Origin: Sorangium aterium
Lineage (GTDB): Bacteria; Myxococcota_A; Polyangia; Polyangiales; Polyangiaceae
Length of the DNA stretch: 64,000 nucleotides
Assembly (NCBI RefSeq): GCF_028368935.1
Contig: NZ_JAQNDK010000002.1
Location: forward strand, 2,418,001 to 2,482,000
Reading direction: 5' to 3'
Part shown: positions 8,915 to 49,610 of the stretch, piece by piece
Position numbering within the stretch: the first letter of the stretch is position 1
How the letters are laid out: the number at the start of each line of letters is the position of its first letter
The notes under the pieces: generated by a model
Database searches by the model: none
The model's input: the letters and a program-made list of their open reading frames with translations, nothing else
What the model was told of the DNA's origin: nothing
Position numbers and translations under genes: made by a program

Positions 8915-9210
8915 ATCGGCATTCTCCCGGGCGCGGGACGCACGCCGCGCGCGTGCCTCCCAGGTTCCGCAGGAGTCGCCTCGATCGTCGCTTGACGGCC
9001 TTGCTCGCCGCTCGTGGCCGACGGGGCCAGGCGGCATCTCCCACAGCTTCGCCGTGAATGTAAAGCGTAGCAGAACGAAGGCGGCAGCGCCCCATAAGTC
9101 GATGAAGCGCTTGCTGATTTTGCGGATGCTTGCGGATGCGAGGCTTTCCTACGAGCTTCTCACGAATCGCCCGACGGGCGCCGAGAGAGCTCTGCTCCGA
9201 AGCGGGCTGC

Positions 9211-34064: not shown

Positions 34065-34082
34065 GCGCGGGCGCGCCCGCGC
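34065..34082. terminator. 18-bp perfect palindrome between convergent genes
   Basis: GCGCGGGCGCGCCCGCGC begins at the first base after the hcp stop codon and ends 16 bases before the stop of the sugar dehydrogenase. There is no loop-specific sequence and no T-tract. Confidence 0.5.
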
Positions 34083-34097
34083 CCGACGTCTGCTGGC

Positions 34098-35651
34098 TCA
34101 GTGCGATGTCGTGTACTTGAACTCGAGGATCGCCCCCGGGTTGTCCAGGACCGTCGTGACGCCGCCGGTCGGCCCGCTCGTGTTCCCCGTGGTGTCCGTG
34201 ATGATGTAGAAGGTCTTGCGATCCGGGCTCATCGCGAGATCGCGGTACCGGTTCGTGGTCTGGAAGAGGACGACGGGCTCGCCCTCCACGGACTTCCCGT
34301 TCGGGCTCAGCTTCACCTGGTACACAGCGCCCTTCTTGAGGGAGGTCATCAGGAGAGAGTTCCCCCACCCGCGGATGCCGTGCCCGGCAGGGTAGTAGTG
34401 GAGCGAGGAGGGCGCGATCGTCGGCCAGCAGATGTACTGGCTGAACCCGCACGCCCAGTCGAAGAAGACGTAGTCGTTGGGGACGGTGTAGAAGGTGAGG
34501 AGCGGCTCCTTGAAGTCCGGATGGCTGAAGGCGCTCTCCAGCTGCCGCGGCACGGACGGGGGAGGAGCGAAGTCGCTCCAGGCGAGCTCGTTGCACGGCG
34601 TCGGGCTCGACGCCGACCAGTTGTCGTACGTGTACGCCTGGTCGTCCTTGTAGCCGGCGACGTACGGCCAGCCATAGTTCTTGCCGGCCTGGATGAGGTT
34701 CAGCTCGTCGTCGCTCTTCGGCCCGTGCTCGTTCGCGTAGAGCTTGTCGCCCCGGCCGAACGTGAGGCCCTGCGCGTTGCGATGGCCGTACGAGTAGATA
34801 TGGCTGCGGACCCCGTCGATCTTCGGGTTGTCCTTCGGGATCGAGCCATCGACGTTCAAGCGCAGGATCTTGCCGACGTATTTCGACCAGTCGTGCGCCG
34901 CGACCTCGGCCGCCGTGGGCAGCTCCTGCGCGCGGTTCGGGTTGCACATCCTGGCGAACTGATTGTTCCCCTGATCCCCGATGGTGTAATAGAGCTTCCC
35001 ATCGGGGCCGAACAGGAGCCGCGCGGAGTTGTGATCGTCGCTCCCCGGCAGGCCCGTGATGACGTCGACAGGGCTCCCGAGGGTCTCGGTCGCCCGGTTG
35101 TACGTGTAGCGGCGGATCTTCGTCCTGCGGTCCACCGCTGGATCTGCCGCGACGTTGTAGGTGAAGGACACGTACACATAGTCCTTCCCTTTGTGCTTGA
35201 GCAGATCCGGGTGCAGCGCCAGGGCCAGCAGCCCGTCCTGACCTCCCGACTGGAACGCCTCCGGGATGGTGATAGCGGTCTTCTGAAGGCCGTCCTCCGG
35301 CCTCACGCGCACGACCCGCTTCGCGGTGCGCTCGGTCAGCCACAGGTAGCCGTCCGGCCCCCAGACGATCCGCATCGGAAACGAGAGATCCCGTACGATC
35401 TCGCGCGAGGTGAACGCCGGCTCCTCGCCGGAGCACGCCTCGTCGCCATCGCCGAGATCCTCGGTATCACCGGCCTCGTCGGCCTCGTCGGCCTCGTCGG
35501 CCTCCTCGGTGACGATGGCCTGAGCATCGGATTCGAGCGGCTCGTCCACGTGACCCGCCTGATCACATCCGGTGAGGCTCCAAGAAGCCGTGGTAAGCAA
35601 ACCAACTTGAGCCAGAACGACAGCCAGGTTGCGTGAGATAAAGGGCGACAT
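34098..35651 (-). CDS. PQQ-dependent soluble aldose/glucose dehydrogenase (sGDH type), lipoprotein
   Basis: This 517-residue protein starts at ATG 35651 behind GGGAGGTGG. It has a signal peptide with lipobox (SLTGCDQ), an acidic linker with an EADEADEADEA repeat, then a six-bladed beta-propeller of the soluble quinoprotein glucose dehydrogenase family (GSDH). Landmarks are MRIVWGPDGYLWLTERTA, GQDGLLALALHPD, HNSARLLFGPDGKLYYTIGD followed by QGNNQ, YGHRNAQGLTF and NEHGPKSDDELN, plus the GYPY-like KNYGWPYV. It oxidises aldoses with PQQ and Ca2+ in the periplasm or at the surface. Substrate range and PQQ source cannot be seen here. Confidence 0.88.
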   Translation of the reverse strand: MSPFISRNLAVVLAQVGLLTTASWSLTGCDQAGHVDEPLESDAQAIVTEEADEADEADEAGDTEDLGDGDEACSGEEPAFTSREIVRDLSFPMRIVWGPDGYLWLTERTAKRVVRVRPEDGLQKTAITIPEAFQSGGQDGLLALALHPDLLKHKGKDYVYVSFTYNVAADPAVDRRTKIRRYTYNRATETLGSPVDVITGLPGSDDHNSARLLFGPDGKLYYTIGDQGNNQFARMCNPNRAQELPTAAEVAAHDWSKYVGKILRLNVDGSIPKDNPKIDGVRSHIYSYGHRNAQGLTFGRGDKLYANEHGPKSDDELNLIQAGKNYGWPYVAGYKDDQAYTYDNWSASSPTPCNELAWSDFAPPPSVPRQLESAFSHPDFKEPLLTFYTVPNDYVFFDWACGFSQYICWPTIAPSSLHYYPAGHGIRGWGNSLLMTSLKKGAVYQVKLSPNGKSVEGEPVVLFQTTNRYRDLAMSPDRKTFYIITDTTGNTSGPTGGVTTVLDNPGAILEFKYTTSH

Positions 35652-36310
35652 AGGACCACCTCCCTGTCTTGTTCAAGTGATTTTCAAATGTCGGTGCTGG
35701 CCAGATCCCACCGCGCCACGGCGTGGCGGACGCGCTGGGCAAATTTCGGCACGCAACCGGGGATCGCATGACGTCCGGTAGTGCCCTCCCCGGTTAGAGT
35801 AAGGTCTTTACTATAGCAAATCTGGAGCTCGTCTGCACTGACATCGTTGATTTGCGATACTGGTGGACGATATTGTGCGCAGACGAGCCACTGTGTCGTT
35901 CCTGGCGCAGACATGGATGCTCCGGTCGGCTCGAAGTCCCAGGGCGAAGCGCGACCTGCGTTGCGGCGATCCTCCGCTGACAGCGCGTGGCGCTGCGGAG
36001 GTGCTCTTGCGAGACGAAGACGGGGACTGGTCAAATTGGGATAGGGAGGCGGGGGGGCAGGGAGAAAAACTTAGTAAATCTCCCGCCTCCCCGTCTCCCT
36101 GTGATCGTCCTCGGCAAGGGCGACCACCATCCGGAGATGAGCCTCCGGGGCGCCGAGGAGCGAGCCCTTCTCGCTCTCGTGGCATCGCCTGCGCCTCGGC
36201 GGCCTTCGTGTCTGGGTCGCTGCGGCAGGCGGCCGAACGTCGCAGCGCGGCCGCGCTCGCGATGCCGCGCGCCGTGCGACGCTCGAAGGAGCGCTGGATC
36301 TCGGTGGGGG
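35652..36310. other. 659-bp region with no recognised gene
   Basis: This lies between the sugar dehydrogenase start and the stop of the GYF protein. It holds a 10-bp inverted repeat GGGAGGCGGG (36044-36053) / CCCGCCTCCC (36082-36091) flanking an AT-richer loop, which could be a terminator or RNA structure. An AT-richer patch at 35800-35880 may be the dehydrogenase promoter. Open frames here have no recognisable content. Confidence 0.45.
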
Positions 36311-37111
36311 TTACTTCGCCGGCGCCTGCTCTGCGGTCGCGCCGAGCTTCTCGATCGAGCGCGGGGTCCCGAAGCCGGGCCCGCCGAGCGCGGTCTCGAT
36401 CTTCAGATACTCACCCTGATGCCCGGAGGAGCGCGCGGCGTCGAGGAGGACGTCATTGCGGTAGAGCGTCACGATCAGCCCCGCCACGACCGACAGCGCC
36501 AGCGTCAGGCGCTGCGCCCGGCCCGTCTCGCGCGCGCGAGGCGCCGCGTAGGACACCTCATTCAGCAAGACCTGCTCCCGAACCTCCGGCATCCACGGCG
36601 GCGAGGTGGGCCGAGACGCCGCGAGCATCGCCGCGGGCGGCGCCTGCACCTCGGTCCGTGTCACGAGGTTGGGCGAGCTGTCGTCCAGCGCTCCGAGCGG
36701 CATCGTGTCGCCCAGCGACATCGGGGCGCCGAGCGGCATCGTGGAGGACATGTTCGACGCCACCGGCGTCGGATGGTCGGAGTCCATGTTCCGCCGCGCA
36801 GGGGCGCGCGGGGGCGGCGGAGGCGGGCCCCGACGCGCCGTGCTCGGCGGAGGACCCTGGACCTGCGCCGGCTCGGGCGGCGTCGGCTCGATTCCCGCCA
36901 CGACGCCGAGCGGCTGCCAGGCGGCCATCCCAGGGCGCCATATCTTCGTCGTCTCGTCGATCACGTCGAGACGGAACAGGTCGTCGAGCTTGTCCAACGT
37001 CAGCACCTTGATGTCGTCAGGCGCGATCGCGACATGCCAGAGACTCTCGCGATCATCGGTTGCCGGAACGGGCGGCGCCGGGCGCCTGGCCGGAAGGGGC
37101 GGCGGTTTCAT
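36311..37111 (-). CDS. GYF-domain (DUF4339-type) membrane protein
   Basis: This 266-residue protein starts at ATG 37111 behind GGGAGGA. A GYF_2 domain lies at residues about 24-68 (WHVAIAPDDIKVLTLDKLDDL, VIDETTKIWRPGMAAWQPL). A Pro-rich and Met/Pro/Leu repeat region (STMPLGAPMSLGDTMPLGA) is followed by one transmembrane segment near residues 203-220 (LTLALSVVAGLIVTLY) and a short exterior tail. GYF_2 domains bind proline-rich partners. Such proteins are frequent in myxobacteria beside signalling genes. Function unknown. Confidence 0.78.
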   Translation of the reverse strand: MKPPPLPARRPAPPVPATDDRESLWHVAIAPDDIKVLTLDKLDDLFRLDVIDETTKIWRPGMAAWQPLGVVAGIEPTPPEPAQVQGPPPSTARRGPPPPPPRAPARRNMDSDHPTPVASNMSSTMPLGAPMSLGDTMPLGALDDSSPNLVTRTEVQAPPAAMLAASRPTSPPWMPEVREQVLLNEVSYAAPRARETGRAQRLTLALSVVAGLIVTLYRNDVLLDAARSSGHQGEYLKIETALGGPGFGTPRSIEKLGATAEQAPAK

Positions 37112-37314
37112 ACAAAGTCCTCCCTTGCGCCCGCGAGGATGCCACGGCGCGCGCGCACCGTACACACCGACATGAGCCTCCGCGTGCTTTCGAGACGGTG
37201 CGGATTTTTGCAATGAGTGAGGTGTGAGCTGTAACGCTGTGACCCGTGGCGCTGGCGGGATCCTCGCCATGCCGGTATTCTCGCCGGCGATGGCGGCGGA
37301 GCATGGAGGCAGTC

Positions 37315-38109
37315 ATGAACATCGCGGATGAGGCGATCGGGGCCGGCAACAGCGCTGGATCGTCCAGCTTCCGACGCTGGATGCGCGTGATGCCGGCGCT
37401 CCTCCTCGTCGCGGCCGCGGCGTTCGTGGCGGCATATTACGTCCCGCTTCACCGCGCTCACGTGCTCTTGCTGGAGGAGCAGCGGAAGTCGAACCAGAGG
37501 GGCAAAGAGCTCGAACAGACGCTGAGCCAGGTGCGCGGGGAGCTCCAGGCGAAGACGGCGCAGATCGAGAAGAGCGAGGCGGAGCGGCAGCAGACCGAGG
37601 CCGCGAAGAAATCGGGCGTCGATCGGGTCGAGCAGATCAAGGCGGAGCTCGCGGGGAAGCTCGACAAGCACGTCAAGAAAGGGGTCGCGGCGGTCGCGGT
37701 CGCGGAGGGACAGGCGTTCGTCGCGCTCTCGGAGAGCGCGGTGTTCCTCCCCAACACGGTCGACGTGAGCCCGCAGGGGCAAGCCCTCCTCTGCCAGGTG
37801 TCGGGGGCGCTGTCCGCGAGCGGCGGCGGCCAGGCGCCGCTGCGCGTCGGCGCGGTCAGCGGTCCTCCGGCCTCGGTCCCTGCGCCCTTGCAGGCCGCCT
37901 ATCCGACGCCGTGGGAGCTCTCGGCGGTCCGGGCGGCGACCGTCACGCAGACCCTCCAGGACAAGTGCTCGGTGGCAGGGGCCCGGCTGTCGGCGGTCGG
38001 GCACGCCGAGCACGACCCCGCGGCCGCCGCGCTCGGGGAGACGAAGCTGCCTCCGGGGCGCGTCGAGATCTCCGTCGCGCTGCCGGGGGCCTCCCCCGCG
38101 GCGAAGTGA
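37315..38109 (+). CDS. OmpA/MotB-like cell-wall-binding protein with coiled coil
   Basis: This 264-residue protein starts at ATG 37315 (GGAGG six bases upstream; the in-frame ATG at 37303 sits in that site). It has one transmembrane segment (about 26-45, MPALLLVAAAAFVAAYYV), then a coiled coil (about 50-115, rich in Glu/Gln/Lys heptads). The OmpA/MotB domain follows: QAFVALSESAVFLPNTVDVS, PTPWELSAVRAATVTQTLQDK and RLSAVGHAEHDP. This is the standard fold for non-covalent peptidoglycan binding. Stator or structural role cannot be distinguished. It diverges from the GYF gene. Confidence 0.85.
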   Translation: MNIADEAIGAGNSAGSSSFRRWMRVMPALLLVAAAAFVAAYYVPLHRAHVLLLEEQRKSNQRGKELEQTLSQVRGELQAKTAQIEKSEAERQQTEAAKKSGVDRVEQIKAELAGKLDKHVKKGVAAVAVAEGQAFVALSESAVFLPNTVDVSPQGQALLCQVSGALSASGGGQAPLRVGAVSGPPASVPAPLQAAYPTPWELSAVRAATVTQTLQDKCSVAGARLSAVGHAEHDPAAAALGETKLPPGRVEISVALPGASPAAK

Positions 38110-38116
38110 CGGCCGC

Positions 38117-38151
38117 GGGGGCGCTCGACCTGCGCGTCGTCAGGCGCCCCC
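38117..38151. terminator. hairpin at convergent junction
   Basis: GGGGGCGC (38117-38124) pairs with GCGCCCCC (38144-38151), just after the OmpA-like stop and overlapping the last codons of the opposing cheA gene. There is no T-tract. Confidence 0.5.
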
Positions 38152-40314
38152 CAGGCTGGCCGCGATGATCCGGCGCAGCTCCTCCTCGACGAACCGCTGC
38201 TTCGACAGCACCGCCCGCACGCCGAGCCCGCGCAGCGCGGCCTCGCTCTGCTCCTGCGCCGCCGTCGTCAGCACGACGACCGGCACGCGGGCGAGCCCGG
38301 GCGAGCGCCTGAGCTCCGCCACCAGCTCCAGGCCGCTCATGTAGGGCATCTCCAGGTCGGTCAGCACCACGTCGGGCGGCGCCGCCCGCGCCCGCGCGAG
38401 CCCCTCCCGCCCGTCGGTCGCCTCCTCGACGCGCAGCCCGAGCGACCGCAGGATGCCGCAGAGCAGCTCCCGCGCGACGGGCGCGTCCTCCACGACCAGC
38501 GCGAGTGGCTCCCGCTTCTGCTCGGCGGCGGCGAAGGGCGCCTCCCGCGGCGCCTGCCGGGCGTACGCGAACAGCCGCTCCACGTCGAGGAGCAGCATCG
38601 CCTCGCCGTCCGCGGTCGGCGCCACCGCGCGCACGAGCGGCGAGGTGACGGGCATCTCCTCGGAGCGCACGAGCGCGACCAGCCGGGGGTTCTCGTAGCC
38701 GCCCACGCTCACCGCGAAGAGGCCCGCGGCGTGGTGCAGCACGAGCGCCGCGTCCCCGGGCTCGGGCTGGCCTCCGTCGCCGAGCACCGCCCCGAGCGCG
38801 TACAGCGGCGCGAGCTCGGCGCCGGCGCCGCTGGTCAGGCGCACGCGCGGCCCGTCGGGGGTGTGCAGGAGCTCCTCGTCCTCCAGCAGCACGACCGAGT
38901 GCACGGCGTGGGTCGGCACCGCGCACCGGAAGCGCCCGCTGGAGATGGGGACCACCTCCTCGCCGTGCAGGTTCTTCGGCACCACGAGCAGGATGGTCGT
39001 GCCGAGGCCGGGCTTCGAGTCGACCCGTACCTGCCCGCCCAGCGCGCCGATCTCGCGCGCCACGATGTCGAGCCCGACGCCCCGGCCCGAGATCGCGCCG
39101 ACGCTGCGGCTCGTCGTGAGCCCGTGCGCGAACAGGTACGGGATGAGCTCGGCGTCGTCGAGGGACCAGGCGCCCGGGACCGAGGGCGCGAGCACCTCGC
39201 GCAGGCGGGCGAAGTCGACCCCGCCGCCGTCGTCCTTCACCTCGATCCGCACGGCGGCGTCGGTCTGGATCACGGTCACCGCCACCGTCCCGCGCGCGGG
39301 CTTGCCGCGGCGCGCCCGGACGTCCGCCGGCTCGATCCCGTGGTCGATGGCGTTGCGCACGAGGTGCAGCAGCGCCGGCTCGAGGCGGCGCTCCACGGCC
39401 GCGTCGAGCAGCCCCGTCCCCTCGACCCGCGCCTCGACGTCCTTGCCCAGCATGCGCGCGGCGCTCCGGGCGGCGAGCGACACCTGGTTCAGCAGGCGCT
39501 CGGTGCGCACGACCGACGCCCTCCGGACCACCTCGTCGAGCTCGCCGAGCGCGCGCCCTGCCGCGAACTCGTTGCTGGACGAGTCCGCCCGGACGGCGCC
39601 CAGGAGGCGCTCGATCTCGGCACCATAGCCGAGCGTCTTCGCGATGCGCTCTGCAAAGCGGTCCGGCGCGCCCCGGGGGTCGATCTCGACGAGCAGCGCG
39701 CGGAGCATGCGCTGGGACTCGCGGAGGCGCCGCTGGATGACCTCCCGCTCGCCGTGGAGCCGCTGGAGCTCCTGCAAGAGCGCCCCGACGGCCTCGACGT
39801 CGAGGGCCGCGCGGGCGGTCGGCTGGGCGGGGTCGGGCGGCGCGTCGGGCGGGTCCAGCCGCGGCGGCAGGACGCTCTCGTGCACGGACTCAGGCGGCGG
39901 CGCGAGCGGCGGCGCGAGCTCGCCGGCGGGCAAGCCGCTGCCGCCGAGCTCCGCGCGCGCCGCGCGGAGGGTCTCCTTCACGATCTCGAGCTCGGGCGCG
40001 GCGTCGCCGCCGGGGCTCGCCGACAGGAGCCCCAGCCCCTCCAGCGCGCCGAGGAGGCTGTCGCCGGTGAGCTGCGTGGGGCGCGCGCCGCCCCGCACCG
40101 CGTCGATGACGTCCTCCGCCAGCTCGGCCAGGTCGCCGCACGCGGCGAGCTCCAGCATATGCGCTTCGCCCTTCAGCGTGTGCAGGAGCCGGCGCAGCAC
40201 CTGCAGGTTGCCGCTCTGGCCCTGCTCGTAGCCGAGCCACAGGTCGGTCGCCTGGGCCACGCGGTCCGGCATGGTCCGGTGGAACGCGGCGACGAGATCA
40301 GCCCGGCTCCTCAT
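38140..40314 (-). CDS. hybrid CheA-type histidine kinase with CheW-like and receiver domains
   Basis: This 724-residue protein has: Hpt (P1) domain with phosphorylatable His45 in LLHTLKGEAHM; a Pro/Ala-rich linker (about 115-165, no P2); a P3-like helical dimerisation region; a P4 ATPase with LVRNAIDHGIEPADVRARRGKP (N box), DDGGGVDF and SGRGVGLDIV (G boxes); and a CheW-like P5 domain (about 440-590). The receiver domain (602-724) has phosphoacceptor Asp653 (LTDLEMP) and Lys705. This FrzE/hybrid-CheA layout is common in myxobacterial chemosensory systems. It overlaps the end of the MCP gene by 17 bases. No cheB or cheR is in the cluster. Confidence 0.92.
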   Translation of the reverse strand: MRSRADLVAAFHRTMPDRVAQATDLWLGYEQGQSGNLQVLRRLLHTLKGEAHMLELAACGDLAELAEDVIDAVRGGARPTQLTGDSLLGALEGLGLLSASPGGDAAPELEIVKETLRAARAELGGSGLPAGELAPPLAPPPESVHESVLPPRLDPPDAPPDPAQPTARAALDVEAVGALLQELQRLHGEREVIQRRLRESQRMLRALLVEIDPRGAPDRFAERIAKTLGYGAEIERLLGAVRADSSSNEFAAGRALGELDEVVRRASVVRTERLLNQVSLAARSAARMLGKDVEARVEGTGLLDAAVERRLEPALLHLVRNAIDHGIEPADVRARRGKPARGTVAVTVIQTDAAVRIEVKDDGGGVDFARLREVLAPSVPGAWSLDDAELIPYLFAHGLTTSRSVGAISGRGVGLDIVAREIGALGGQVRVDSKPGLGTTILLVVPKNLHGEEVVPISSGRFRCAVPTHAVHSVVLLEDEELLHTPDGPRVRLTSGAGAELAPLYALGAVLGDGGQPEPGDAALVLHHAAGLFAVSVGGYENPRLVALVRSEEMPVTSPLVRAVAPTADGEAMLLLDVERLFAYARQAPREAPFAAAEQKREPLALVVEDAPVARELLCGILRSLGLRVEEATDGREGLARARAAPPDVVLTDLEMPYMSGLELVAELRRSPGLARVPVVVLTTAAQEQSEAALRGLGVRAVLSKQRFVEEELRRIIAASLGGA

Positions 40315-41863
40315 CCGCGTCCGCCTCCGCGCTTTCGGGCTTGCTGGCCCTCGCCCCCAGCGGCTTGACCCGGAAGGCCTTCGCCGTCGTCTTGAGCACG
40401 TGCGACAGCTGGAGCAGCGACTCGGCCGACCGCGTCGCGGCCACGCTGCTCGTCAGCGCGTCGTTCACCGCCCCGACGATGTCGACGATCGCCGTCTTGA
40501 CCCGCGCCGTCCCCTCGCGCTGGTGGTCCACCGCGTCCGAGATCTGCGCGGCGGCCGCGGCCGTGTCGCGGGCCAGCTTGATCCCGTCCTCGGTCGCGAG
40601 CACGGACGCGTGGGAGGCCGCGTGCATGTTCGCCACGAGCTTCCGGATGTCGCGCACCGAGTCCATGACGTGCTCGGACAGGCGGCGCATCTCGGCGGCC
40701 ACGAGCGAGAACCCGCGCCCCACCTCGCCGGCCTTCGTGCCCTCGAGCGCGGCGTTGAGCGCGAGCAGGTCCGACTTGTCGGCGATGCTCTGGATCAAGG
40801 ACAGGATCTCGCCGATGCGGTCCGAGTGGGAGCTGACGAGGCGCGTCTGCTCCGCGGTGTGCTGGACGCTGACGAGGCTCCGCTGCGCCATCTCGTGCAC
40901 GGTCGTCGCGTCCTTCGCGATGTGATCCGCGCTGGCGGTCAGGGCCTCGACGGTCCGCCGGATCTCCTCGAGCGCCGCGTTCTGCTGGCTCGCGCTCGTC
41001 TCCTGCTCGCGCACCGACGAGAACATGCCGGCGGCGGCCGACGCGACCTCCGCCGAGGTGTTGCCAATCCGCGAGGCGAGCTCCTGGAGGCTCGTCACCA
41101 TGGAGCGGAACGCGGCGAACAGCTCCCCGTCGCCGGTGATCTTGCACGTGAAGTCGCCGCCAGCGACCCGCGCGGCCGTCTCCTGGAGCTCGCGCAGCTG
41201 GGTGTTCATCCGCTCGAACGCGCTGGCCATGTCCCCGAGCTCGTCGTCGGAGATCCTGAGGGACAGCCGGGCCGAGACGTCGCCGCGGGCGATCCGGTCC
41301 GCCGCCTCCTTGATGTGCGCCATCGAGCGCGTCATGCGCGCCGAGATGACCCAGGCGAGGCCCAGGCCGAGCAGCGCGATCCCCGCCGATTGCAGGGCGA
41401 TGGTCTTGCGCGCGTCGGCGCGGCGCTCGGCGATCCGGTCGCTGCGCAGCCCGACGGCCAGCGTCCCGAGCTGGCGATCGCCGTTCCGCGACCGGATCGG
41501 GGCCTCGCTGACGACGACGCCGGCGTCGCCCCGGCCCCGCGCGCCCTCGGGCGCCTGCGCCGCGCCGATCGCGGCGATGCGCTGCCCCCTCGCGTCGTAG
41601 ACGGACACCCAGCTCACCAGGGGATCGGTCATCGCGGTGCGCAGGGTGTCCGGGAAGGTCTCCGGCGGCTGCTCGAGGTCCATGGCCACGCCGATGGGCT
41701 CCTTCAGCATGGTGGCGAGGATCCCGGCGCGCTCGCGCAGCTCGGCCTCGCTCGCCCGCGCGGCGTGCTCGGGGATCAGCCACAGATCCAGCGCCGACAG
41801 CACGATGGCCACCGACGCGACGAGGGCGGCGATCTTCCAGCGGATAGAGCGAAAGTTGAGCAT
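40298..41863 (-). CDS. methyl-accepting chemotaxis receptor with YfiN-like periplasmic sensor
   Basis: This 521-residue receptor has TM1 (11-30) and a short periplasmic domain (about 31-155), in which ELRERAGILATMLKEPIGVAMD and DPLVSWVSVYDARGQRIA resemble the CHASE8-like sensor of YfiN diguanylate cyclases. TM2 (about 156-175), HAMP (176-228) and a second HAMP-like segment (231-262) follow. The signalling domain has hairpin tip SDLLALNAALEGTKAGEVGR (363-382). Its close coupling to cheA (17-base overlap) and to a YfiR-like gene upstream suggests that the periplasmic partner gates it. The sensor resemblance is by pattern and needs profile comparison. Confidence 0.88.
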   Translation of the reverse strand: MLNFRSIRWKIAALVASVAIVLSALDLWLIPEHAARASEAELRERAGILATMLKEPIGVAMDLEQPPETFPDTLRTAMTDPLVSWVSVYDARGQRIAAIGAAQAPEGARGRGDAGVVVSEAPIRSRNGDRQLGTLAVGLRSDRIAERRADARKTIALQSAGIALLGLGLAWVISARMTRSMAHIKEAADRIARGDVSARLSLRISDDELGDMASAFERMNTQLRELQETAARVAGGDFTCKITGDGELFAAFRSMVTSLQELASRIGNTSAEVASAAAGMFSSVREQETSASQQNAALEEIRRTVEALTASADHIAKDATTVHEMAQRSLVSVQHTAEQTRLVSSHSDRIGEILSLIQSIADKSDLLALNAALEGTKAGEVGRGFSLVAAEMRRLSEHVMDSVRDIRKLVANMHAASHASVLATEDGIKLARDTAAAAAQISDAVDHQREGTARVKTAIVDIVGAVNDALTSSVAATRSAESLLQLSHVLKTTAKAFRVKPLGARASKPESAEADADEEPG

Positions 41864-42000
41864 GGCGGGTGAGGGACGGCGATGGCGGACGCGGAACGAG
41901 AAGCGCTGGCTGGGAGATGGGAGATCGCGAGTCGTGAGCCGTGAGCGGTGAAGTTGCGAGCGGCGATGCGCGGTGTCCGGTGGCGGACGTCGCGAGGGCC

Positions 42001-42582
42001 TCAGTCGACGATGCGGGCGAGCCGGAGGAGCTGCGGGTCGAAGCGGAGGCCGACGGCGTTGGCGTGCTTCACGTTCAGCAGGAGCTCGGGCTTGGCGCCC
42101 GAGAGCCCCACGGCGACGGCGCAGCCGCGCTTCGTGTCGTCGCCGTCGCCGCACACGACGATGCGGACGACGGCTCCCTCGCGTGACGGGATGTCCGGGA
42201 TGGCCGCGGCGAGCCCGCGCGCCACATAGACCACCTCGGCGCCGGCGGCGCGGAGCGCCTCCTGCAGCTGGGCCCTTCCGCTGTACGTCACGCGCAGGAC
42301 CGACGCCTGCCGCTTGGCCACGGTCGTCTTCGCGGCCAGCCTGGAGAGCACGGCCGCCATCGCGCTCGCGTCCTCTGCGCTCGCGCCCGACTCCGCCCCG
42401 ACGACCGCGAGCACGGCCGTGCCCGCGCGGCTCGCGAACCCGCTCTCGTAGCCGATCGATCGCAGGAGGATGGCGCCTCGCAGCTCGTAGGGGACGGAGG
42501 CGGCAGAGCGGCTCTCGGTGCTCACGGTCGTGAGGAGCGCCGCGGCCATCAGCATTCGAATCGACGAGATCGGAGATACCAT
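42001..42582 (-). CDS. YfiR-like periplasmic protein (DUF4154)
   Basis: This 193-residue protein has a signal peptide (cleavage near SRSA-AS). The mature part follows the YfiR/DUF4154 pattern: AILLRSIGYESGFASRAGTA, VLAVVGAES, ASVLRVTYSGRAQLQEALRA (strand plus helix), AEVVYVARGLAAAIPDI, a Cys pair in VVCGDGDDTKRGCAVAVGLS, and the family ending LLLNVKHANAVGLRFDPQLLRLARIVD. Known YfiR is a periplasmic, redox-sensitive inhibitor of the diguanylate cyclase YfiN. Here no cyclase is nearby; the next gene downstream is an MCP. ATG 42582 is the most natural start for the signal. Confidence 0.78.
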   Translation of the reverse strand: MVSPISSIRMLMAAALLTTVSTESRSAASVPYELRGAILLRSIGYESGFASRAGTAVLAVVGAESGASAEDASAMAAVLSRLAAKTTVAKRQASVLRVTYSGRAQLQEALRAAGAEVVYVARGLAAAIPDIPSREGAVVRIVVCGDGDDTKRGCAVAVGLSGAKPELLLNVKHANAVGLRFDPQLLRLARIVD

Positions 42583-42657
42583 GTTCCGCTGGCGAGCTTC
42601 GTAGGAGCGCGGACGGATCCTCGATAAGCGTGGCATCAGGCGACCGCGGACCCCACG

Positions 42658-43170
42658 TCAACGTTCCTTGGCGGCGAGCCGCTTGACCAGGGCCGGCAGA
42701 CGATCGAGGTGGCGCTTCGAGAGGACCGCGTCCGCCTGGACCTCCAGCTGCAGCTGTTCGAGCTCCCGCTCGGAGTGTCCGGACATCAGGATGACGCTGA
42801 GCTGCCCGAGCCGCTGGTTCTTCCGGAACAGGGTGAGCAGCCGGTCCCCACGGATGGTGGGCATGAAGACGTCGAGGACGACGACGCGCACCTGGTGCCG
42901 CACGATGGCCTGCGTCGCCCCGATGGGGGAGGGGAGCGCGAGCACCTGAAAACCGGCAGAGCGCAGCACGCGAGACACCTCTTCTCGGGCGATCTCGCTG
43001 TCGTCGATCACGAGCACAGGCGCGTTGGTCGGCGCGGTTGTCGGCGTGCTCGCCGGAGCGCTCGCCGGCGACCGCGACAGCGGGGCCCCGCTCGCCGGGG
43101 ACGCCTCGACGGCCGAATCGAGCGGCGGTCTGGGTTTGGACGCAGGCGATCGGGAGCTCGGAACGCTCAT
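42658..43170 (-). CDS. single-domain response regulator with Pro/Ser/Ala N-terminal extension
   Basis: In this 170-residue protein residues 1-50 are a disordered Pro/Ser/Ala/Thr segment. The receiver domain (51-165) has acidic Asp56/Asp57, phosphoacceptor Asp100 (VVVLDVFMP), Ser130 (LMSGHS) and Lys152 (VLSKRHL). There is no output domain, as in CheY-type regulators. Its start overlaps the cheW stop by four bases (ATGA read on the minus strand). It is probably the phospho-acceptor of the CheA encoded two genes downstream of the YfiR-like gene. Confidence 0.88.
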   Translation of the reverse strand: MSVPSSRSPASKPRPPLDSAVEASPASGAPLSRSPASAPASTPTTAPTNAPVLVIDDSEIAREEVSRVLRSAGFQVLALPSPIGATQAIVRHQVRVVVLDVFMPTIRGDRLLTLFRKNQRLGQLSVILMSGHSERELEQLQLEVQADAVLSKRHLDRLPALVKRLAAKER

Positions 43171-43667
43171 GGGTTCGACCAGATGGCCTGAGCTTCGCGC
43201 GTCGGCGCCGAGGGCCGAGGCGCAGCGTCCGAAGCGTCGACAAGGTGGGCTGCGTCGAGGAAGGTCACCGCTCCCTCGCTGGTGTCGACGACGGCGTTCG
43301 GCGCAGGCTCCCCGAACACCTCGACCGCGGCGACACACCGCGTCTTGCCGGCGGGCAATCCCAGGTAGCCGCGCGCAGCGCGGCAGACGACGATACGGAG
43401 CGGGGTAGCCGCCGGCTCCGCGACGGCGGGCGACAGGATCACGATGATCCTCCCCCGGTCCTGGAGGATGCCCATCACCCGGGGGTCGGCGCGCGGCAGC
43501 GGCAAGGGGGCGCGCCACGCGATCACCTCTTCGACCTGCTGCGCCCTGAGCGCGAAGGTCACCGCGCCCATGTCGAAGAGCAGGAAATCGACAACGGCCC
43601 TCTCGCGCAGGCCCTTGTCCGGGGCGTCGTCGCGCAGATCGTGAACCTGGCTGATTGCTTCGGACAA
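43167..43667 (-). CDS. CheW-like coupling protein
   Basis: In this 166-residue protein residues about 25-145 match the CheW fold: VDFLLFDMGAVTFALRAQQV, VEEVIAWRAPLPLPRADPRVMG, ILQDRGRIIVILS and a second beta subdomain with RIVVCRAARGYLGLPAGK, VAAVEV. It couples receptors to CheA. The C-terminal 20 residues are Pro/Ala-rich. It is the first chemosensory gene of the operon and lies 145 bases after the TonB-dependent receptor gene. Confidence 0.82.
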   Translation of the reverse strand: MSEAISQVHDLRDDAPDKGLRERAVVDFLLFDMGAVTFALRAQQVEEVIAWRAPLPLPRADPRVMGILQDRGRIIVILSPAVAEPAATPLRIVVCRAARGYLGLPAGKTRCVAAVEVFGEPAPNAVVDTSEGAVTFLDAAHLVDASDAAPRPSAPTREAQAIWSNP

Positions 43668-43812
43668 GGTGTCCTCGATTTACCACAAGGGCAGACGCCG
43701 GGGTGGTGCATTCGTATCGGGCTGCACGGTGTCAGGAGATTTCTGACGTCGGTTCTGCTGTCGCTGTCGTGTGTGCTCCTGCGTCTGCCTTCCCGTGCAT
43801 GCCCCGGCGGCA

Positions 43813-46152
43813 TCAGTAAGACGCCTCGACCGAGGCGCCCACGTAGGGGCGACCGGTGGTGATGATCAGCCGGTGCGAGGCGTAGGACGGCGGAGGGACC
43901 TTGTTGAACGTGAGGTTCTTGCCGAACACGGAGACCCAGACGCGATCGATCGGCGAGAAGGACACAGAGGCGTCGAGGTTGAACGCCGGGCGCGCCGCCA
44001 GCCGATCTCTGGGCGGCAGCTCGTCCGTGTCGTGGGCGGGCGCGTCCCTGGAGCCGTGGCTGTTCATGCCAGTCCGGAAGGTCGCGGCGAGCCCGGCGGT
44101 GAACCGGCTGGCGCTGTAGCTCAGGTGGCCTTTGACGAGGTGGATGGGGTAGTTGGCCCAGGTCTCGCCGTCCCAGTTGGTCAGGATGTTGAGGTCGCTC
44201 TCGGCGCCGAACGGCTTCGACACGCTGTACCAGAGGTCCCCCGCGAACCCGCCGCCGAGGTCGCCGATCGCGCCGATCTCGCCGCCGAGGGCGTCGACGT
44301 CCGCGGTGCTGTTCGCGAAGCTGCCCCACCAGCCGCCCGCGGACGGGTGCCTGGGGTTGTGGGCCACGTGGTCCTCGAAGTCCTCGGGCCGCACCTGATC
44401 CCACGACACCCAGCCAAGGGTATTCCTGTAGCGCTCATAGAAGACCGCGACGTCGAGGGCGAGGCGCTCGTCGAGCAGGCCCACGACATAGTCGAGCTCC
44501 ACGAGGTGGGAGGACTCCGGAACGAGCGAGGGCAGCGGCGCGATGGGCTCGTCCTCGAAGGCGGCGTTGAATTGCTCGAGCCAGTTGAAGTATGCGGCGT
44601 CCGGGAAGCGGAAGCCCTTCTGGTAGGACAGCTTGACGTTCTGCGTGTCGCTGATCGCGTAGGCGGCCGCGACGCGGTAGGAGGGGCTGTTCACCGGCTC
44701 GGGCTCGCGCGAGAGGCCCCCGCGGAGGTTCAGCTCTCCAAACTCGGTGTGATCGAAGCGCAGGCCCGCGGAGACGGTGAGATCGTGGAAGGTGGCCGTG
44801 CTCTCGCCGAAGGCGGCGAGCTCGGTCCACGAGAAGCTCTCCGGGGACTCGAAGGCGGTCCCGTAGAGCCGTCCCCAGCGGGATCTCTGGCCGCTGAAGC
44901 GCTTGTGGCTCGCCGACGCGCCGATGGCGATCTGGCTGTTCGGCAGCGCCGTCGTCTTGTAGACCGCCTTGATGTCCCGGTGCTCCTCGCCGAGGCCCCC
45001 GACCGGCAGGAGCCCTCCGCCCGGGACCGGATTGGACGCCTTCGCCATCTCGTCTGCGACCCAGTCGGCCGGGACGAGGGCCGTCTCGAAGGCCGAGAAG
45101 GTCGGGACCAGCTCGATCTTGTGCTGCTTGGACAGGTGGACGTGGATCTCCGGCGTGACGGCGAACGTCCTCTGCCGCACATGGCCGGTGTTGCTGTCGG
45201 ACCACTGGCCCGCGAGCTGCTCGCGGGTCATGGCCCTGTTCGGGGCGTTGCCCATCATCGACGTTTGCGCGTAGTCGAGCCGCAGATCGACGCTGACGGG
45301 GCTGCGCTCGGAGCCGTAGCGGAGGCGGCCGAAGCCCTTGTAGCTCGGCTCGCCGAGGGCGTCGACGCGCGTGTGGTGCAGGAAGGGAGACGTCGTGACG
45401 CCGGCGTAGCCCTTGCCATACAGCTCCGCCGTGTTTGGCCGGGGCGCCTGGGGCAGCTCTCCTTCGTTGTCGGCGTGGCCGAAGTAGAGGAAGAGATCGG
45501 CGTTGTGCTTCTCGCTGAGCAGGCCGCCGTAGCTGGCCTCCAGGGTGCGCGTGTCGCCGGAGGCATACGACGCCTTGCCCCAGAGCCCGGGGCGGGTGAT
45601 CCCCGTCGGCCTGAGGACGTTGACGAAGCCGCTGATCGCGCCGGAGCCGTGGACGATGGCGCCGGGGCCGAGGATCACCTCGACCCGCTCGATGTCTCCG
45701 GTGAGGGGCACGGCCAGCGTGCTCCCGATGGCGCCGAAATGGGCGCGCATGTTCGTGTTCACGCCGTCGACCATGACGAGCGTCTTGGCGTTGTTGTCGA
45801 TGAGCACGCCGCGCACGCCGATGAGGCGCGAGGTGCGCTCGTGCTCGCCGATCAGGACGCCGGGCTGGTGGGCTTGCAAGAGGTCGTCGAGGGAGCGCAC
45901 GGCATAGAGCTTCAGCGCGCGGGCGTCATAGAGGCGCGCCTGGCCGGTCGACGTCTTGCTCTCGGTCTCGAAGAAGCCAGTCGACGAGACCTTCACGTTG
46001 AGCAGCTCCTCGAGATCGAGCGAGAGGAACTGCCCCTGACCGCCGTCATCGCCGCTCGCCAGCGCCTCGCTCCCCGGGCTCTGCGCCCAGGCGGAGCCCG
46101 CCGCCCCGAGAGGGCACAGCAGCGAGCAGAGGAGCAAAGCCGACTTGCGCAT
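43813..46152 (-). CDS. TonB-dependent outer-membrane receptor
   Basis: This 779-residue protein starts at ATG 46152 (signal peptide to about GSAWAQ). The plug domain (about 30-170) contains LEELLNVKVSSTGFFETESK, LDDLLQAHQPGVLIGEHERT, LIGVRGVLIDNN, DIERVEVILGPGAIVHGSGAISGFVNV. A beta-barrel of about 20 strands follows, ending in the usual aromatic terminal strand (YVGASVEASY). There is no TonB box that I can define with certainty. Such receptors often sit with YfiR-type genes, so it may supply or sense the same ligand as the chemosensory operon behind it. Confidence 0.87.
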   Translation of the reverse strand: MRKSALLLCSLLCPLGAAGSAWAQSPGSEALASGDDGGQGQFLSLDLEELLNVKVSSTGFFETESKTSTGQARLYDARALKLYAVRSLDDLLQAHQPGVLIGEHERTSRLIGVRGVLIDNNAKTLVMVDGVNTNMRAHFGAIGSTLAVPLTGDIERVEVILGPGAIVHGSGAISGFVNVLRPTGITRPGLWGKASYASGDTRTLEASYGGLLSEKHNADLFLYFGHADNEGELPQAPRPNTAELYGKGYAGVTTSPFLHHTRVDALGEPSYKGFGRLRYGSERSPVSVDLRLDYAQTSMMGNAPNRAMTREQLAGQWSDSNTGHVRQRTFAVTPEIHVHLSKQHKIELVPTFSAFETALVPADWVADEMAKASNPVPGGGLLPVGGLGEEHRDIKAVYKTTALPNSQIAIGASASHKRFSGQRSRWGRLYGTAFESPESFSWTELAAFGESTATFHDLTVSAGLRFDHTEFGELNLRGGLSREPEPVNSPSYRVAAAYAISDTQNVKLSYQKGFRFPDAAYFNWLEQFNAAFEDEPIAPLPSLVPESSHLVELDYVVGLLDERLALDVAVFYERYRNTLGWVSWDQVRPEDFEDHVAHNPRHPSAGGWWGSFANSTADVDALGGEIGAIGDLGGGFAGDLWYSVSKPFGAESDLNILTNWDGETWANYPIHLVKGHLSYSASRFTAGLAATFRTGMNSHGSRDAPAHDTDELPPRDRLAARPAFNLDASVSFSPIDRVWVSVFGKNLTFNKVPPPSYASHRLIITTGRPYVGASVEASY

Positions 46153-46541
46153 GGATTTCCCCACGTTCGAGCGCCGGGCAGGGCGCACACGATCGGGGCG
46201 AGCCGACGTGCCGATGGCCCGAGGTCCTGGAGCCCGCCAGGATCGCCGGCCGTGGCTGTGCGCGACGGCGCCGGCGGGCGCGCGCTGCCCGGTTTCCCCC
46301 ACGAATCTGCGACGGAACTGTTCGCTGACTTGCTGTATTGCGCGAACATCCCGATGTTACACGAATGCCCGGATGCGTCAATGGCTGTCCTGAACGCTCG
46401 ACGTGGAGGGCCGCGAGCCCGCCGGCGTGCTCTCCAGAGCGCATCTTGGGAGCGGGGGTTGCTCCAGGGCGCGACTCGATGGGAGGTCGATGTGAGAAGG
46501 TGTGGTGTTTCCTCGGGGGCTGGCCGCGTGGGTGGCTGGCG
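46153..46541. other. 389-bp region with no recognised gene
   Basis: This lies between the start of the receptor gene and the stop of the membrane glycosyltransferase-like gene on the same strand. An AT-richer patch at about 46320-46390 may hold the receptor promoter. No gene or palindrome is recognised. Confidence 0.4.
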
Positions 46542-48818
46542 TCAGCGCCCGGCGATCCAGTAATGGAAGGCGTGGAATCCAGCGCCGCGGCGCAGGGTGA
46601 TCGCGATCGGGGTCGGCGTCGACAGGCGCGCGGCGGGGAGGGACAGCGCCCGCTCCACCCACGGTCCACGCGGCACGTCGACGGTGCCGATCTCCTCGCC
46701 CGCCACGGAGACGGCGAGCTCGGCGCCTTCGTCCGAGGCCACCCGGAGCACGAGGCGCGCCTCGGCGGGGGGCGCCGTGAGGCGGGCGACGAAGCGGTCG
46801 GCTGTGCGGTGCTGCCGGCCGCCGTCCGCGAGCTCCGGGCGCGTGGGGTCGAGCTCCCCCGGCGCGCTGCTCTCGGGCGCGGCGAGCGCGATCGCCATGT
46901 TGCGCTGGTCCGCGAGCGGATCGAGCGCGTAGGCGTGCGCCGCCTCGGACTCGAGGTCCGAGACGTCGAGCTCGTCGAGGATCCGCTCGCCGGGCGCGGA
47001 TCGCACCGGCAGCGCCCCTGAGCCGAGGAGGTCCCAGCGCGCCTCGTAGGCGATCATCGTGGTGCCGCCGAGGATGGCCTGGTCCTCGACGGTGGCATCG
47101 ACAAGCTCGCGGCCCAGCACCGGCGCGCACGCCATCCAGTGCGGGTAGACGATGAAGTGGGTCGGCCGGCGCTCCGGGGGCAGCTTCTCGTAGTGCTCGA
47201 ACCTGGAGCCGGCGCCGGCCACCCAGTAGCGCGCCTCGCCCTCGGTGGTCAGGCCCACGACGTCGAAGGTCCTGCGGCCGCTGAAATAGGCGAGCGCGCC
47301 CGTGTCGTTGACGCCGATCCTGGCGTCCTCCGGCAGGTGCTGCGCGGCCCAGCGGCCGAGCCAGACCTGCTGCCGATCGATGGCGCGGGCGGAGTTGGCG
47401 AGGTCGCCGATGGCCCACGGCAGCCGCGCGGCCAGGGCGCCGGCGAACGCGCCGGCGAGGAGGGGCGTGACGTAGTGGAGCGAGGGCCGGAGCCGCTGGG
47501 CGGCGTCGCCGAGCTCGCGCGTGAGGCAGGCGGCCATGACGATCCACGCCGGCGCGAAGGGCCAGACGTACCGCACGCGGTTCCAGAGGAAGCTGAGGTA
47601 CGTGCAGGGCAGCAGCGCCCCGAGCGCGAGGGCGCCCACGATCGCGGCGTGCGCGGGGCGGCCCCTCCGGTGCGCTGCCACGGCGAGCGCGACGGCGCCG
47701 AGGGCGATGACGGCGGCGGAGCCCTCGGGGAGGAAGACGGCCGTCCACTGGCCTCCGTCGATCACGTCGGTCACGAGCAGCCGGACGTTGTCGAGGAGCG
47801 CGGCTCGGAGCGTCGGTCCGTCGTAGTTGGGGTTGCCGATCAGCCACTTGACGGAGGTCGTCGAGGAGGTCGGGTGGCCCGCGAGCAGCTGGTTCAAGGC
47901 CGGGACGACGAGCGGACCGAGGAGCGGCGCGAGGGCGAGCAGGCGCCCGGCGGAGCGCGCGGAGTGCCAGAGAGCGCCGCCGCGGGAGGGCGACGGAGCG
48001 GGGAGGGGCGGCGCCGGGAGCGGTGCTGGAGGCGCGGAGCGTGACGCCGAGAAGGCGAGCGCGACCGCGGCGAGCAGGGAGGCGAGGGCGCCCTCCGGGC
48101 GAAGCAGGGGCGCGACGAAGCCGCAGAGCGCGAGGGAGCGGGCGATCGAGGCGCTGGGCGGCTGCGCGGGCGCGCTGGGCGGCTGCGCGGGCGCGCTGGG
48201 CGGCTGCGCGGAGGTGGTCGGCGGCTGCGCGGGCGCACTGAGCGGCTGCGCCGGGGCGGCGCTGTCCGTGGCGGGATCCGGCGGAGCTGGCTCGCAGAGC
48301 GCCGCCGCAAGGCGCGCGGTGCGGGTGAGGATCCAGGCGAAGGCGACCGTCTCCATCCCGCTCCAGGCGAACCACGCGAACGCGGCGAACCCGGCGCACA
48401 TCGCGCCCGCGCCGGCGGCGGCCGCGGGGCCGGCGAGGGGGCGCGCGAGGCGCGCGGTCTCGACGGCGAGCGCGGCGTGGAACACGAGCCCGAGCGCCCA
48501 GACCGCATAGACGAGCGAGAGATCGCGCAGGCCGAGCGCGTGGAAGGGGGCGAGCAGCACGGGCCAGAGCAGGCTGGTGGCGCCGCTCGAGTAGCCGTCG
48601 CCCGCGACGAAGCTGAAGAAGCCGCCCTCGGCGAGCCGCCGGGCGTATTGCATGTGGATGAACGCGTCGTCGAGCGGCAGGGCCGGGCCCCCGGCCTGCG
48701 CAAGGATCGCCCTGACGCAGAGCGCGCCGAGCGTGCCGCTCGCGGCGAGGGCGGGCGCATAGGGGAGGGCGCGCGCGGCGAGGGCGCGCAGCCGGGAGGG
48801 GGCCGGAGGAGCCGCCAT
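46542..48818 (-). CDS. large multi-pass membrane protein, GT-C glycosyltransferase-like
   Basis: This 758-residue protein starts at ATG 48818. Its N-terminal two-thirds hold about 10-12 hydrophobic segments. Near the N-terminus is GGPALPLDDAFIHMQYARRL, a DD/E pattern between the first two membrane segments that matches the GT-C fold of Arn-type and mannosyl transferases. The central stretch has a Pro/Gln/Ala repeat (AQPPSAP, five copies). The C-terminal ~200 residues are soluble and beta-rich and may lie outside the membrane. The likely role is a polyprenyl-phosphate-linked sugar transferase. The substrate is unknown. Confidence 0.7.
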   Translation of the reverse strand: MAAPPAPSRLRALAARALPYAPALAASGTLGALCVRAILAQAGGPALPLDDAFIHMQYARRLAEGGFFSFVAGDGYSSGATSLLWPVLLAPFHALGLRDLSLVYAVWALGLVFHAALAVETARLARPLAGPAAAAGAGAMCAGFAAFAWFAWSGMETVAFAWILTRTARLAAALCEPAPPDPATDSAAPAQPLSAPAQPPTTSAQPPSAPAQPPSAPAQPPSASIARSLALCGFVAPLLRPEGALASLLAAVALAFSASRSAPPAPLPAPPLPAPSPSRGGALWHSARSAGRLLALAPLLGPLVVPALNQLLAGHPTSSTTSVKWLIGNPNYDGPTLRAALLDNVRLLVTDVIDGGQWTAVFLPEGSAAVIALGAVALAVAAHRRGRPAHAAIVGALALGALLPCTYLSFLWNRVRYVWPFAPAWIVMAACLTRELGDAAQRLRPSLHYVTPLLAGAFAGALAARLPWAIGDLANSARAIDRQQVWLGRWAAQHLPEDARIGVNDTGALAYFSGRRTFDVVGLTTEGEARYWVAGAGSRFEHYEKLPPERRPTHFIVYPHWMACAPVLGRELVDATVEDQAILGGTTMIAYEARWDLLGSGALPVRSAPGERILDELDVSDLESEAAHAYALDPLADQRNMAIALAAPESSAPGELDPTRPELADGGRQHRTADRFVARLTAPPAEARLVLRVASDEGAELAVSVAGEEIGTVDVPRGPWVERALSLPAARLSTPTPIAITLRRGAGFHAFHYWIAGR
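48151..48255 (-). repeat. 21-bp in-frame tandem repeat (AQPPSAP)
   Basis: Five units of a 21-bp repeat (GCGCTGGGCGGCTGCGCGGG plus one base on the plus strand) lie inside the glycosyltransferase-like gene. They encode Ala-Gln-Pro-Pro-Ser/Thr-Ala/Ser-Pro units in a loop between membrane segments. The fourth and fifth units have diverged. Confidence 0.8.
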
Positions 48819-48929
48819 GGGGCCCGACGCATACCACCGTGCCGCCCGGGGACAGCGATTTCCCGCGCCCGGTGGCCGGCGGATTTCCCGCGCGGGGGCG
48901 GCCGGCATTTGGTAGAGCGCCGGGGCTCC

Positions 48930-49610
48930 ATGGTCTTCCAGCCGCGCCCGAACCACCCCTACGCCGACGCGCCTCGCTTCCCTGACGGCGACGACGTCTC
49001 CATCGACGCCTTGATCCCGGGCGCCGGCCCCGTCGAGATCGAGATCGGCCCTGGCCGCGGCGGCTTCCTGTTCGAGCGCGCGGCGGCGAGCCCCGAGGCG
49101 CGGCTGCTCGGGCTGGAGATCCGCCTGAAGTGGGCGGCGATCGTCGACGGGCGCTTGCGGAAAGGCGGCCTCGGCGGACGCGTGCGGGCGCTCAACGCCG
49201 ACGCGCGCGAGGCGCTCGCGCGGCTCCGGCCCGACGCGTCGATCGCGCGGTTCTTCCTGCACTTCCCGGATCCGTGGTGGAAGAAGCGCCACGCAAAGCG
49301 CCTCGTGATGGGCCCGGCGCTGCTCGACAGCCTCGCGCGCCTGCTCGTGGACGGCGGCGAGCTCTTCGTGCAGACCGACGTCGAGGAGCGCGGCGCGCTC
49401 TACGCCGAGCAGATCGGCGCGCACCCCGCGTTCGAGCCGGCGGGCGACGCGCCCGGCTCTCCGCACCTCGCCGAGAACCCCTACGGCGCGCGGAGCCCCC
49501 GCGAGCACCACGCGATCGCCGACGGGCTGCCGGTGAGCCGGCTGCTCTACCGGAGGCGGCCGCGGGCGGCGGGCGGAGCGCCGCTGGATCCTGGCCGCGA
49601 CGATGGTTGA
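48930..49610 (+). CDS. trmB: tRNA (guanine-N7-)-methyltransferase
   Basis: This 226-residue protein has the SAM-binding EIEIGPGRGGFL motif (about 36-47), LGLEIRLKWA, and the TrmB signature FFLHFPDPWWKKRHAKRL near residue 110-125. GGELFVQTDVEERGALY follows. It makes m7G46 in tRNA. The start ATG at 48930 is close to the gene's ribosome-binding region, and the protein begins shortly before the SAM domain as in short bacterial TrmB. This is a housekeeping gene in an otherwise accessory-looking window, divergent from the membrane protein gene. Confidence 0.92.
   Translation: MVFQPRPNHPYADAPRFPDGDDVSIDALIPGAGPVEIEIGPGRGGFLFERAAASPEARLLGLEIRLKWAAIVDGRLRKGGLGGRVRALNADAREALARLRPDASIARFFLHFPDPWWKKRHAKRLVMGPALLDSLARLLVDGGELFVQTDVEERGALYAEQIGAHPAFEPAGDAPGSPHLAENPYGARSPREHHAIADGLPVSRLLYRRRPRAAGGAPLDPGRDDG

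Follow-up and report, generated by a model that had tools for sequence, protein, structure and literature searches.

The 64,000-nucleotide (nt) window of Sorangium aterium DNA analysed here, part of contig C2 (2.5 Mb) of a 13.47-Mb genome, carries on its minus strand six genes encoding, in this order, a TonB-dependent receptor (TBDR), CheW, a response regulator (REC), a YfiR-like protein (DUF4154), a methyl-accepting chemotaxis protein (MCP) and a hybrid CheA. We propose that the cluster probably encodes a YfiR–CHASE8 envelope-signalling module that is wired to a chemosensory kinase, with the TBDR as its likely input. In the YfiBNR system of Pseudomonas and E. coli, a YfiR-family protein, known mainly for repressing the biofilm-signal enzyme YfiN, likewise stands beside a membrane receptor with CHASE8-type and HAMP domains; the output of YfiBNR is a GGDEF domain, whereas that of the window is an MCP–CheW–CheA pathway, with MCPsignal in the place of GGDEF. 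The features of the cluster (lengths in amino acids, aa; TM, transmembrane helix) are as follows.

43813..46152, minus strand: TBDR with Plug and beta-barrel domains, 779 aa (Pfam Plug 3e-11, barrel 2.5e-18)
43167..43667, minus strand: CheW, 166 aa, TTG start (Pfam 2.3e-8)
42658..43170, minus strand: single-domain response regulator REC, 170 aa (Pfam 5.2e-16)
42001..42636, minus strand: YfiR-like periplasmic protein, DUF4154 (PF13689), 211 aa (Pfam)
40298..41863, minus strand: MCP, 521 aa, with TM1, a periplasmic CHASE8-like domain, TM2, HAMP and an MCP signalling domain
41399..41773, minus strand: CHASE8/YfiN-like periplasmic segment, approximately residues 31–155 of the MCP (profiles and predicted fold)
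41675..41689, minus strand: VAMDL, MCP residues 59–63, aligned with the YfiN AAVVF motif
38140..40314, minus strand: hybrid CheA, 724 aa, with Hpt, HATPase_c, a weak CheW-like domain and a C-terminal REC domain (Pfam)
46354..46381, minus strand: sigma-70-like promoter match ahead of the TBDR gene (weak, consensus only)

Open reading frames and Pfam matches bear out the six genes, single strand and order described in an earlier note on this DNA, together with the overlaps it gave of 4 bases between the CheW and REC genes and 17 bases between the MCP and CheA genes. The intergenic gaps are 145 nt (TBDR–CheW), 21 nt (REC–YfiR) and 137 nt (YfiR–MCP), and all frames of the cluster are open. The YfiR-like gene has a later in-frame ATG at 42582 as a possible alternative start, the N-terminus of the REC protein is rich in Pro, Ser and Ala, and the Pfam scan input for the REC and MCP genes began a few codons upstream of the starts given here. 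A simple scan of 37900–46800 for consensus matches only returned a single promoter-like match (0.1 expected) and no terminator-like site, which is compatible with a single operon but is not proof of one. Rfam gave no match at gathering scores in 34000–50000. By Pfam, the parts of a chemosensory pathway are present, namely an MCP (HAMP 3.6e-13; MCPsignal 9e-24), CheW and a CheA with Hpt and ATPase domains, the CheW-like domain of CheA scoring under its cut-off. The absence of cheB and cheR that had been claimed for this DNA holds for contig C2, where neither was matched and where the cluster has no dedicated copy, but the genome carries both on other contigs. CheB and CheR are not present in every known chemosensory pathway.

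The gene block recurs in close relatives. CheW, REC, MCP and CheA were found near YfiR in eight loci (the window, L103, L104, L105, L106, where the contig ends inside CheA, L107, L066 and L068), and this full chemosensory set occurs in one clade, Sorangium and three relatives. The receptor domains of the eight loci likewise form one clade (support 100/99). The block CheW–REC–YfiR–MCP–CheA is constant in 5/5 Sorangium loci, and as judged from gene order the arrangement is not a product of chance, because that order recurs in 4/4 other Sorangium loci returned. In those four, identity to the window is 74–88% for YfiR, 87–93% for the MCP and 80–85% for CheA. A synteny comparison of the kind that the earlier note proposed therefore finds the arrangement kept in Sorangium and also, with its genes rearranged, in three further loci of Polyangiales. 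On the receptor tree the MCP group requires at least 4 label changes; repeated origin of the MCP output is possible but not proven, because strongly supported branches force only one change.

Next, we placed the cluster among YfiR loci of Myxococcota. The order was searched with the window YfiR (144 genomes, 23 matched) and the phylum with DUF4154 (188 genomes, partly overlapping the order set, 34 matched); neighbourhoods were fetched, loci from a contig search with a YfiR alignment were added and domains were mapped by iterated profiles. The resulting count of 68 distinct loci omits L062, L063 and L064 (contigs the same as L103, L107 and L108), L091 (an 88-aa frame of unconfirmed YfiR identity), L132 (partial YfiR) and G069:C499. 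A CHASE8-like receptor lies within 8 kb of YfiR in 52/68 loci (29 histidine kinases (HK), 20 MCPs, 3 other or cut), a TBDR within 6 kb in 46/68, on the same strand in 45 of those 46, and receptor and TBDR are both near YfiR in 35/68; in these counts L103 figures as lacking a TBDR though its contig ends inside one. For the order set (n = 31, made up of 30/32 places from the order search and one from the phylum search) the figures are 23/31 for the receptor, 26/31 for the TBDR and 20/31 for both; outside the order they are 26/34, 19/34 and 14/34. Plug matches number 301 in approximately 180 Mb (22 YfiR-bearing genomes of the order, this one included), a density that by chance alone would bring a TBDR this close to about 2% of YfiR genes. 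The gene neighbourhoods therefore point strongly to a TBDR–YfiR association across Myxococcota, and the window falls within a modular YfiR–CHASE8 family, taken as a YfiR gene near a CHASE8-type receptor of any output.

The outputs in this family vary. TBDR, YfiR and MCP genes stand in a row on one strand in four loci outside the order (L097, L100, L109 and L111), whose retrieved neighbourhoods showed neither CheA nor CheW. L094, L097 and L111 have GGDEF genes no more than 8 kb from YfiR, and REC-GGDEF proteins are encoded upstream of the TBDR–YfiR–receptor triad in L094 (4807–6990) and L097 (3548–5872, with a gap of about 1 kb), an arrangement which suggests that some YfiR modules still feed cyclic di-GMP (c-di-GMP) through a phosphorelay. 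The Sorangium genome itself holds a second arrangement: its only other YfiR (C4:853779) is part of a series of CHASE8 kinase, REC, YfiR and TBDR genes on one strand (L078, G000:C4:844500–863500, at about 6370–12187), and that kinase is the only CHASE8 match of the genome above the cut-off. Distance profiles of YfiR and receptor in this genome agreed far better when matched (1.69) than when exchanged between its two systems (−0.40). In L108 (the same as L064), from a Polyangiaceae metagenome-assembled genome, a second YfiR (3392–3925) closely resembles the first in sequence, and its stretch showed no receptor, CheA or TBDR.

We then asked how the MCP periplasmic domain relates to that of YfiN. 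An iterated profile that started from the window MCP was used to gather the receptors near YfiR; among them CHASE8 was matched at E ≤ 0.1 in 15/21 MCP-type receptors and 29/31 non-MCP receptors (29 kinases, 2 unassigned), the next commonest family, HAMP aside, reaching 5/21 and 4/31, respectively. The window MCP alone gave no Pfam CHASE8 match at E ≤ 1. Its counterparts in G012 and G030, which share 58% identity with it, were matched (E 5.1e-5 and 5.8e-5) over positions 2–101 of 102, at 26.5 bits, just under the cut-off of 27. Profile–profile comparisons with membrane helices trimmed linked the eight chemosensory MCPs to the kinases of the order at 97.0% (E 9e-11) and to the outside-order receptors at 97.4% (E 9e-12). 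DgcN (YfiN) of E. coli was in turn matched by the outside-order receptors at 96.7% (E 4e-10) and by the kinases of the order at 44.8% (E 2e-4). A control profile from the periplasmic part of another MCP of the same genome, which was one sequence of another fold type, gave 0.1–0.2%. The chemosensory MCPs compared with DgcN directly were not significant (0.6%), and because this direct comparison fails, the relation to YfiN rests on bridging families. Scores from the seed ‘YfiN_peri’ were not used as evidence, because that seed contained HAMP. By these profile comparisons the domain is related to the CHASE8 domain of YfiN via bridging relatives, in two steps to DgcN, and it is by such bridging that we class it as CHASE8-type.

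The predicted structure is consistent with this relation. The AlphaFold2 model of the MCP, built on six sequences in the alignment, has a mean pLDDT (predicted local distance difference test) of 57.8, rising to 73–84 over residues 41–100 and 84–86 over residues 121–140 and low in the membrane and HAMP parts. The nearest solved structure to the periplasmic model is the periplasmic output domain of a LapD orthologue (Z 12.8, 2.5 Å, 112 residues), next to which come CitA PAS domains (Z up to 12.3) and then many Cache-type sensor domains (Z 9–12); these Z values come from a second structure search. In a first look with Foldseek, only an integrative WalK–YycH model passed E ≤ 0.001, with LapD-type (1.3e-3) and CitA (2.4e-3) entries further down. 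The fold is thus predicted to be a CitA/LapD-like single PAS/Cache domain. Malone et al. (PMC3375315) based their model of YfiN on CitA, and CHASE8 is a member of the Cache-like clan (PMC8846402). The YfiN-like periplasmic segment claimed in the earlier note is upheld by the bridging relatives and the predicted fold, but not by direct comparison with CHASE8 or DgcN. Neither of the two findings that the earlier note would have taken as a refutation, a periplasmic domain unrelated to YfiN or a separately transcribed YfiR gene with its own cyclase partner, was made. Pfam matched no GGDEF gene within the window.

At the other end of the MCP, the signalling tip reads NAALEGTKAGEVGRGF, with Lys for the usual Arg and EAA changed; the usual chemoreceptor tip is NAA(I/V)EAARAGEQGRGF.

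The YfiR-like protein matches DUF4154 (‘YfiR/HmsC-like’) at 7e-11, with 42.8 bits against a cut-off of 24.9 and the whole model covered, which places it in the YfiR family. Its identity to E. coli YfiR is 15%; a profile that includes the E. coli row retrieves YfiR from the Protein Data Bank and one without that row does not. Its closest named relatives in the profile search of contigs with the YfiR alignment (6 loci) are those of Sorangium. The protein retains the C-terminal L-x-LAR segment. The AlphaFold2 model is poor (mean pLDDT 58.6; residues 122–170 below 50), and with this poor model Foldseek returned nothing at E ≤ 0.001 and no YfiR among the best 50 rows. The protein has two cysteines, neither conserved in L066/L068, and not the four conserved in YfiR (PMC3375315). 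Redox sensing by the proposed cysteine route is unlikely in the window YfiR, because it has two cysteines rather than four.

Together, these results allow us to suggest how the module would work. YfiR, exported to the periplasm, would bind the CHASE8-like domain of the MCP, much as YfiN is bound by its own YfiR, and would hold the MCP in one signalling state. An input at the outer membrane, most likely the neighbouring TBDR when occupied or transporting, would remove or alter YfiR, so that the TBDR would play a part parallel to that of the lipoprotein YfiB of Pseudomonas, which in the YfiBNR model draws YfiR away from YfiN (PMC3375315). The MCP would then switch via HAMP and, with CheW, set the activity of the hybrid CheA, which would phosphorylate its own REC domain, the single-domain REC protein or both. 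We infer this scheme, including the direction of kinase control, the eventual output and the mode of adaptation, from gene content and order, domain homology, the recurrence of the triad in Myxococcota and the five-gene block in Sorangium.

A search with E. coli YfiB (phmmer, E ≤ 1e-3) gave 0 matches in 40 neighbourhoods and the window, and the OmpA-like protein encoded at 37309–38109 was not matched by it. That protein (plus strand) has an apparent N-terminal membrane helix, judged by eye, and a weak OmpA-like C-terminus, and is kept in L103 and L104. We rejected it as a YfiB substitute: its gene is convergent to cheA, its OmpA match is weak (7.8e-4, below the cut-off), it lies 2.2–2.7 kb from cheA in L103/L104 and it was not found in the L105 stretch.

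Beside the failed direct comparisons of the MCP domain, several observations weigh against the proposed module. In L066/L068, YfiR and TBDR are on the opposite strand from the MCP genes, with YfiR about 5 kb from the MCP, and in L107 CheW faces the other way. No receptor was seen within 8 kb of YfiR in 16/68 loci and no TBDR within 6 kb in 22/68, some of the contigs being short in both cases. Among the eight chemosensory loci, no TBDR was seen near L104, L106 (a short contig) and L107, and the TBDR of L105 and L066/L068 is of a different kind from that of the window and L103 (75% identity over the 53 residues remaining on the L103 contig). The motif Phe of the predicted YfiR contact is replaced by Leu in the five Sorangium MCPs and by Met in L107, and the fold predicted for the MCP domain is shared with small-molecule-binding domains. 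Distance correlations over the whole set (YfiR–receptor r 0.78; YfiR–TBDR r 0.79) are confounded by shared ancestry, and a within-genome paralogue-swap test meant to remove that effect was weak and mixed overall, the matched pair being better in 3/5 cases for YfiR–receptor, 4/10 for YfiR–TBDR and 3/3 for receptor–TBDR.

The TBDR findings bear on a first alternative, in which YfiR controls the MCP and the TBDR is outside the circuit, YfiR or the envelope state being the input and the TBDR a neighbour gained and lost. The three chemosensory loci with no TBDR seen and the two TBDR kinds favour it, as does the proposal of Malone et al. (PMC3375315) that redox input can act via YfiR cysteines in the absence of YfiB. 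We nevertheless consider it rather unlikely: the 46/68 loci in which YfiR has a TBDR within 6 kb far exceed the approximately 2% given by Plug density in the 22 order genomes, and the two unconserved cysteines of the window YfiR do not suit a redox route. The earlier suggestion that a TBDR-bound substrate is the input accordingly gains from the adjacency across Myxococcota and loses from the variable TBDR of the chemosensory loci, in which, on the gene comparisons, the TBDR may be either an input that can be exchanged or a loosely associated neighbour. Replacement of the TBDR at one locus is possible in the relatives L105/L066/L068. The TBDRs at L105 6171–8492, L066 12820–15276 and L068 3560–6010 are closest to each other and next closest to an unlinked TBDR at G000:C4:783606. 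The window TBDR is one of 22 Plug matches in the genome.

The motif and the fold bear on a second alternative, in which the MCP binds a small ligand directly through its PAS/Cache-type domain, as CitA and ordinary chemoreceptors do, and the role of YfiR is unrelated. Malone et al. (PMC3375315) propose that hydrophobic C-terminal residues of YfiR bind the AAVVF patch of the YfiN PAS-like domain, and they report that even conservative changes at the Phe abolish control. This Phe is invariant in 31/31 non-MCP receptors and present in 15/21 MCP-type receptors; the patch is APLEF in L066/L068 and, without Phe, VAMDL in the window, so that neither the motif Phe nor the four-cysteine pattern of YfiBNR is kept. 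Because Phe is replaced and conservative changes are reported to abolish control, the YfiR–receptor contact in Sorangium must, by sequence, either differ or be lost; the Leu at this position stays hydrophobic. The loss of Phe from the predicted contact and the resemblance of the predicted fold to the small-molecule-binding CitA, DcuS and PctA as well as to LapD speak for a small ligand, and the fold does not discriminate between a protein ligand and a small molecule, because many Cache domains score 9–12. Against it, YfiR is near this receptor family in 52/68 loci whatever the output, the YfiR–MCP neighbourhood persists in G012/G030 despite changed strand and spacing, and the top structural match is LapD-like, though CitA lies within 1 Z unit. 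LapD binds a periplasmic protein. We judge direct small-ligand control to be a good deal less probable than a circuit without the TBDR. Last, that the cluster is decaying or silent, with a receptor drifted from YfiR binding and an operon without a strong role, is highly improbable: the motif Phe is lost, the MCPsignal score is the lowest among the five MCPs of the genome and cheB/cheR are not on the contig, but all frames are open and the YfiR, MCP and CheA identities in the four other Sorangium loci are high.

The proposed YfiR–MCP–CheA module shares parts with several known systems. Accessory chemosensory pathways (Wsp, Frz and other Che-like clusters) likewise encode an MCP, CheW, a hybrid CheA and REC together, whereas the receptor of the window is CHASE8-like with YfiR adjoining, and cheB/cheR lie outside the cluster. 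In FecA–FecR signalling an outer-membrane TBDR signals to the inner membrane, as the TBDR here would; the window TBDR has no Pfam match besides Plug and barrel at E ≤ 1, and so no FecA-type N-terminal signalling (STN) domain, and the supposed go-between is YfiR plus MCP. LapD–LapG, in which LapD signals from inside out, provides the top structural match through the LapD-orthologue output domain, but the window system has no c-di-GMP domain. Elsewhere in the window, at about 32700–34064 (plus strand), an open frame has an N-terminus that we take to resemble a hybrid cluster protein.

An MCP as the output of YfiR control, which the earlier note had put forward as new, has a precedent: Malone et al. 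2012 (PMC3375315) already report MCP domains among the outputs of a YfiR–YfiN[PAS] core that they call widespread and modular, with divergent systems listed in their Table S4. Those divergent modules have the same core as the window system with the output exchanged; a CheA/CheW operon such as that of the window is not described in the parts of the paper covered, and ‘TonB’ and ‘myxo’ have 0 occurrences in its main text. The literature searched (titles, and the main text of PMC3375315) contained neither the TBDR–YfiR–receptor triad nor its coupling to a full CheA/CheW pathway.

We tentatively extend the proposal, with less confidence than we place in the module itself, to a Myxococcota-wide trans-envelope circuit in which TBDRs act on periplasmic YfiR and YfiR on CHASE8 receptors with interchangeable outputs, in Sorangium an MCP–CheW–CheA array. 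If this is true, substrate uptake or binding at the outer membrane would be reported to a chemosensory kinase in Sorangium, by a path from the TBDR into the cytoplasm that differs from FecR and anti-sigma signalling, and chemosensory arrays would gain a protein ligand that reports outer-membrane transport. As a YfiR–HK and a YfiR–MCP system occur in one genome, the two outputs could be compared in one cell. YfiR would then be a general periplasmic adaptor that connects outer-membrane receptors to many kinds of inner-membrane signalling protein, rather than a regulator dedicated to a single c-di-GMP enzyme.

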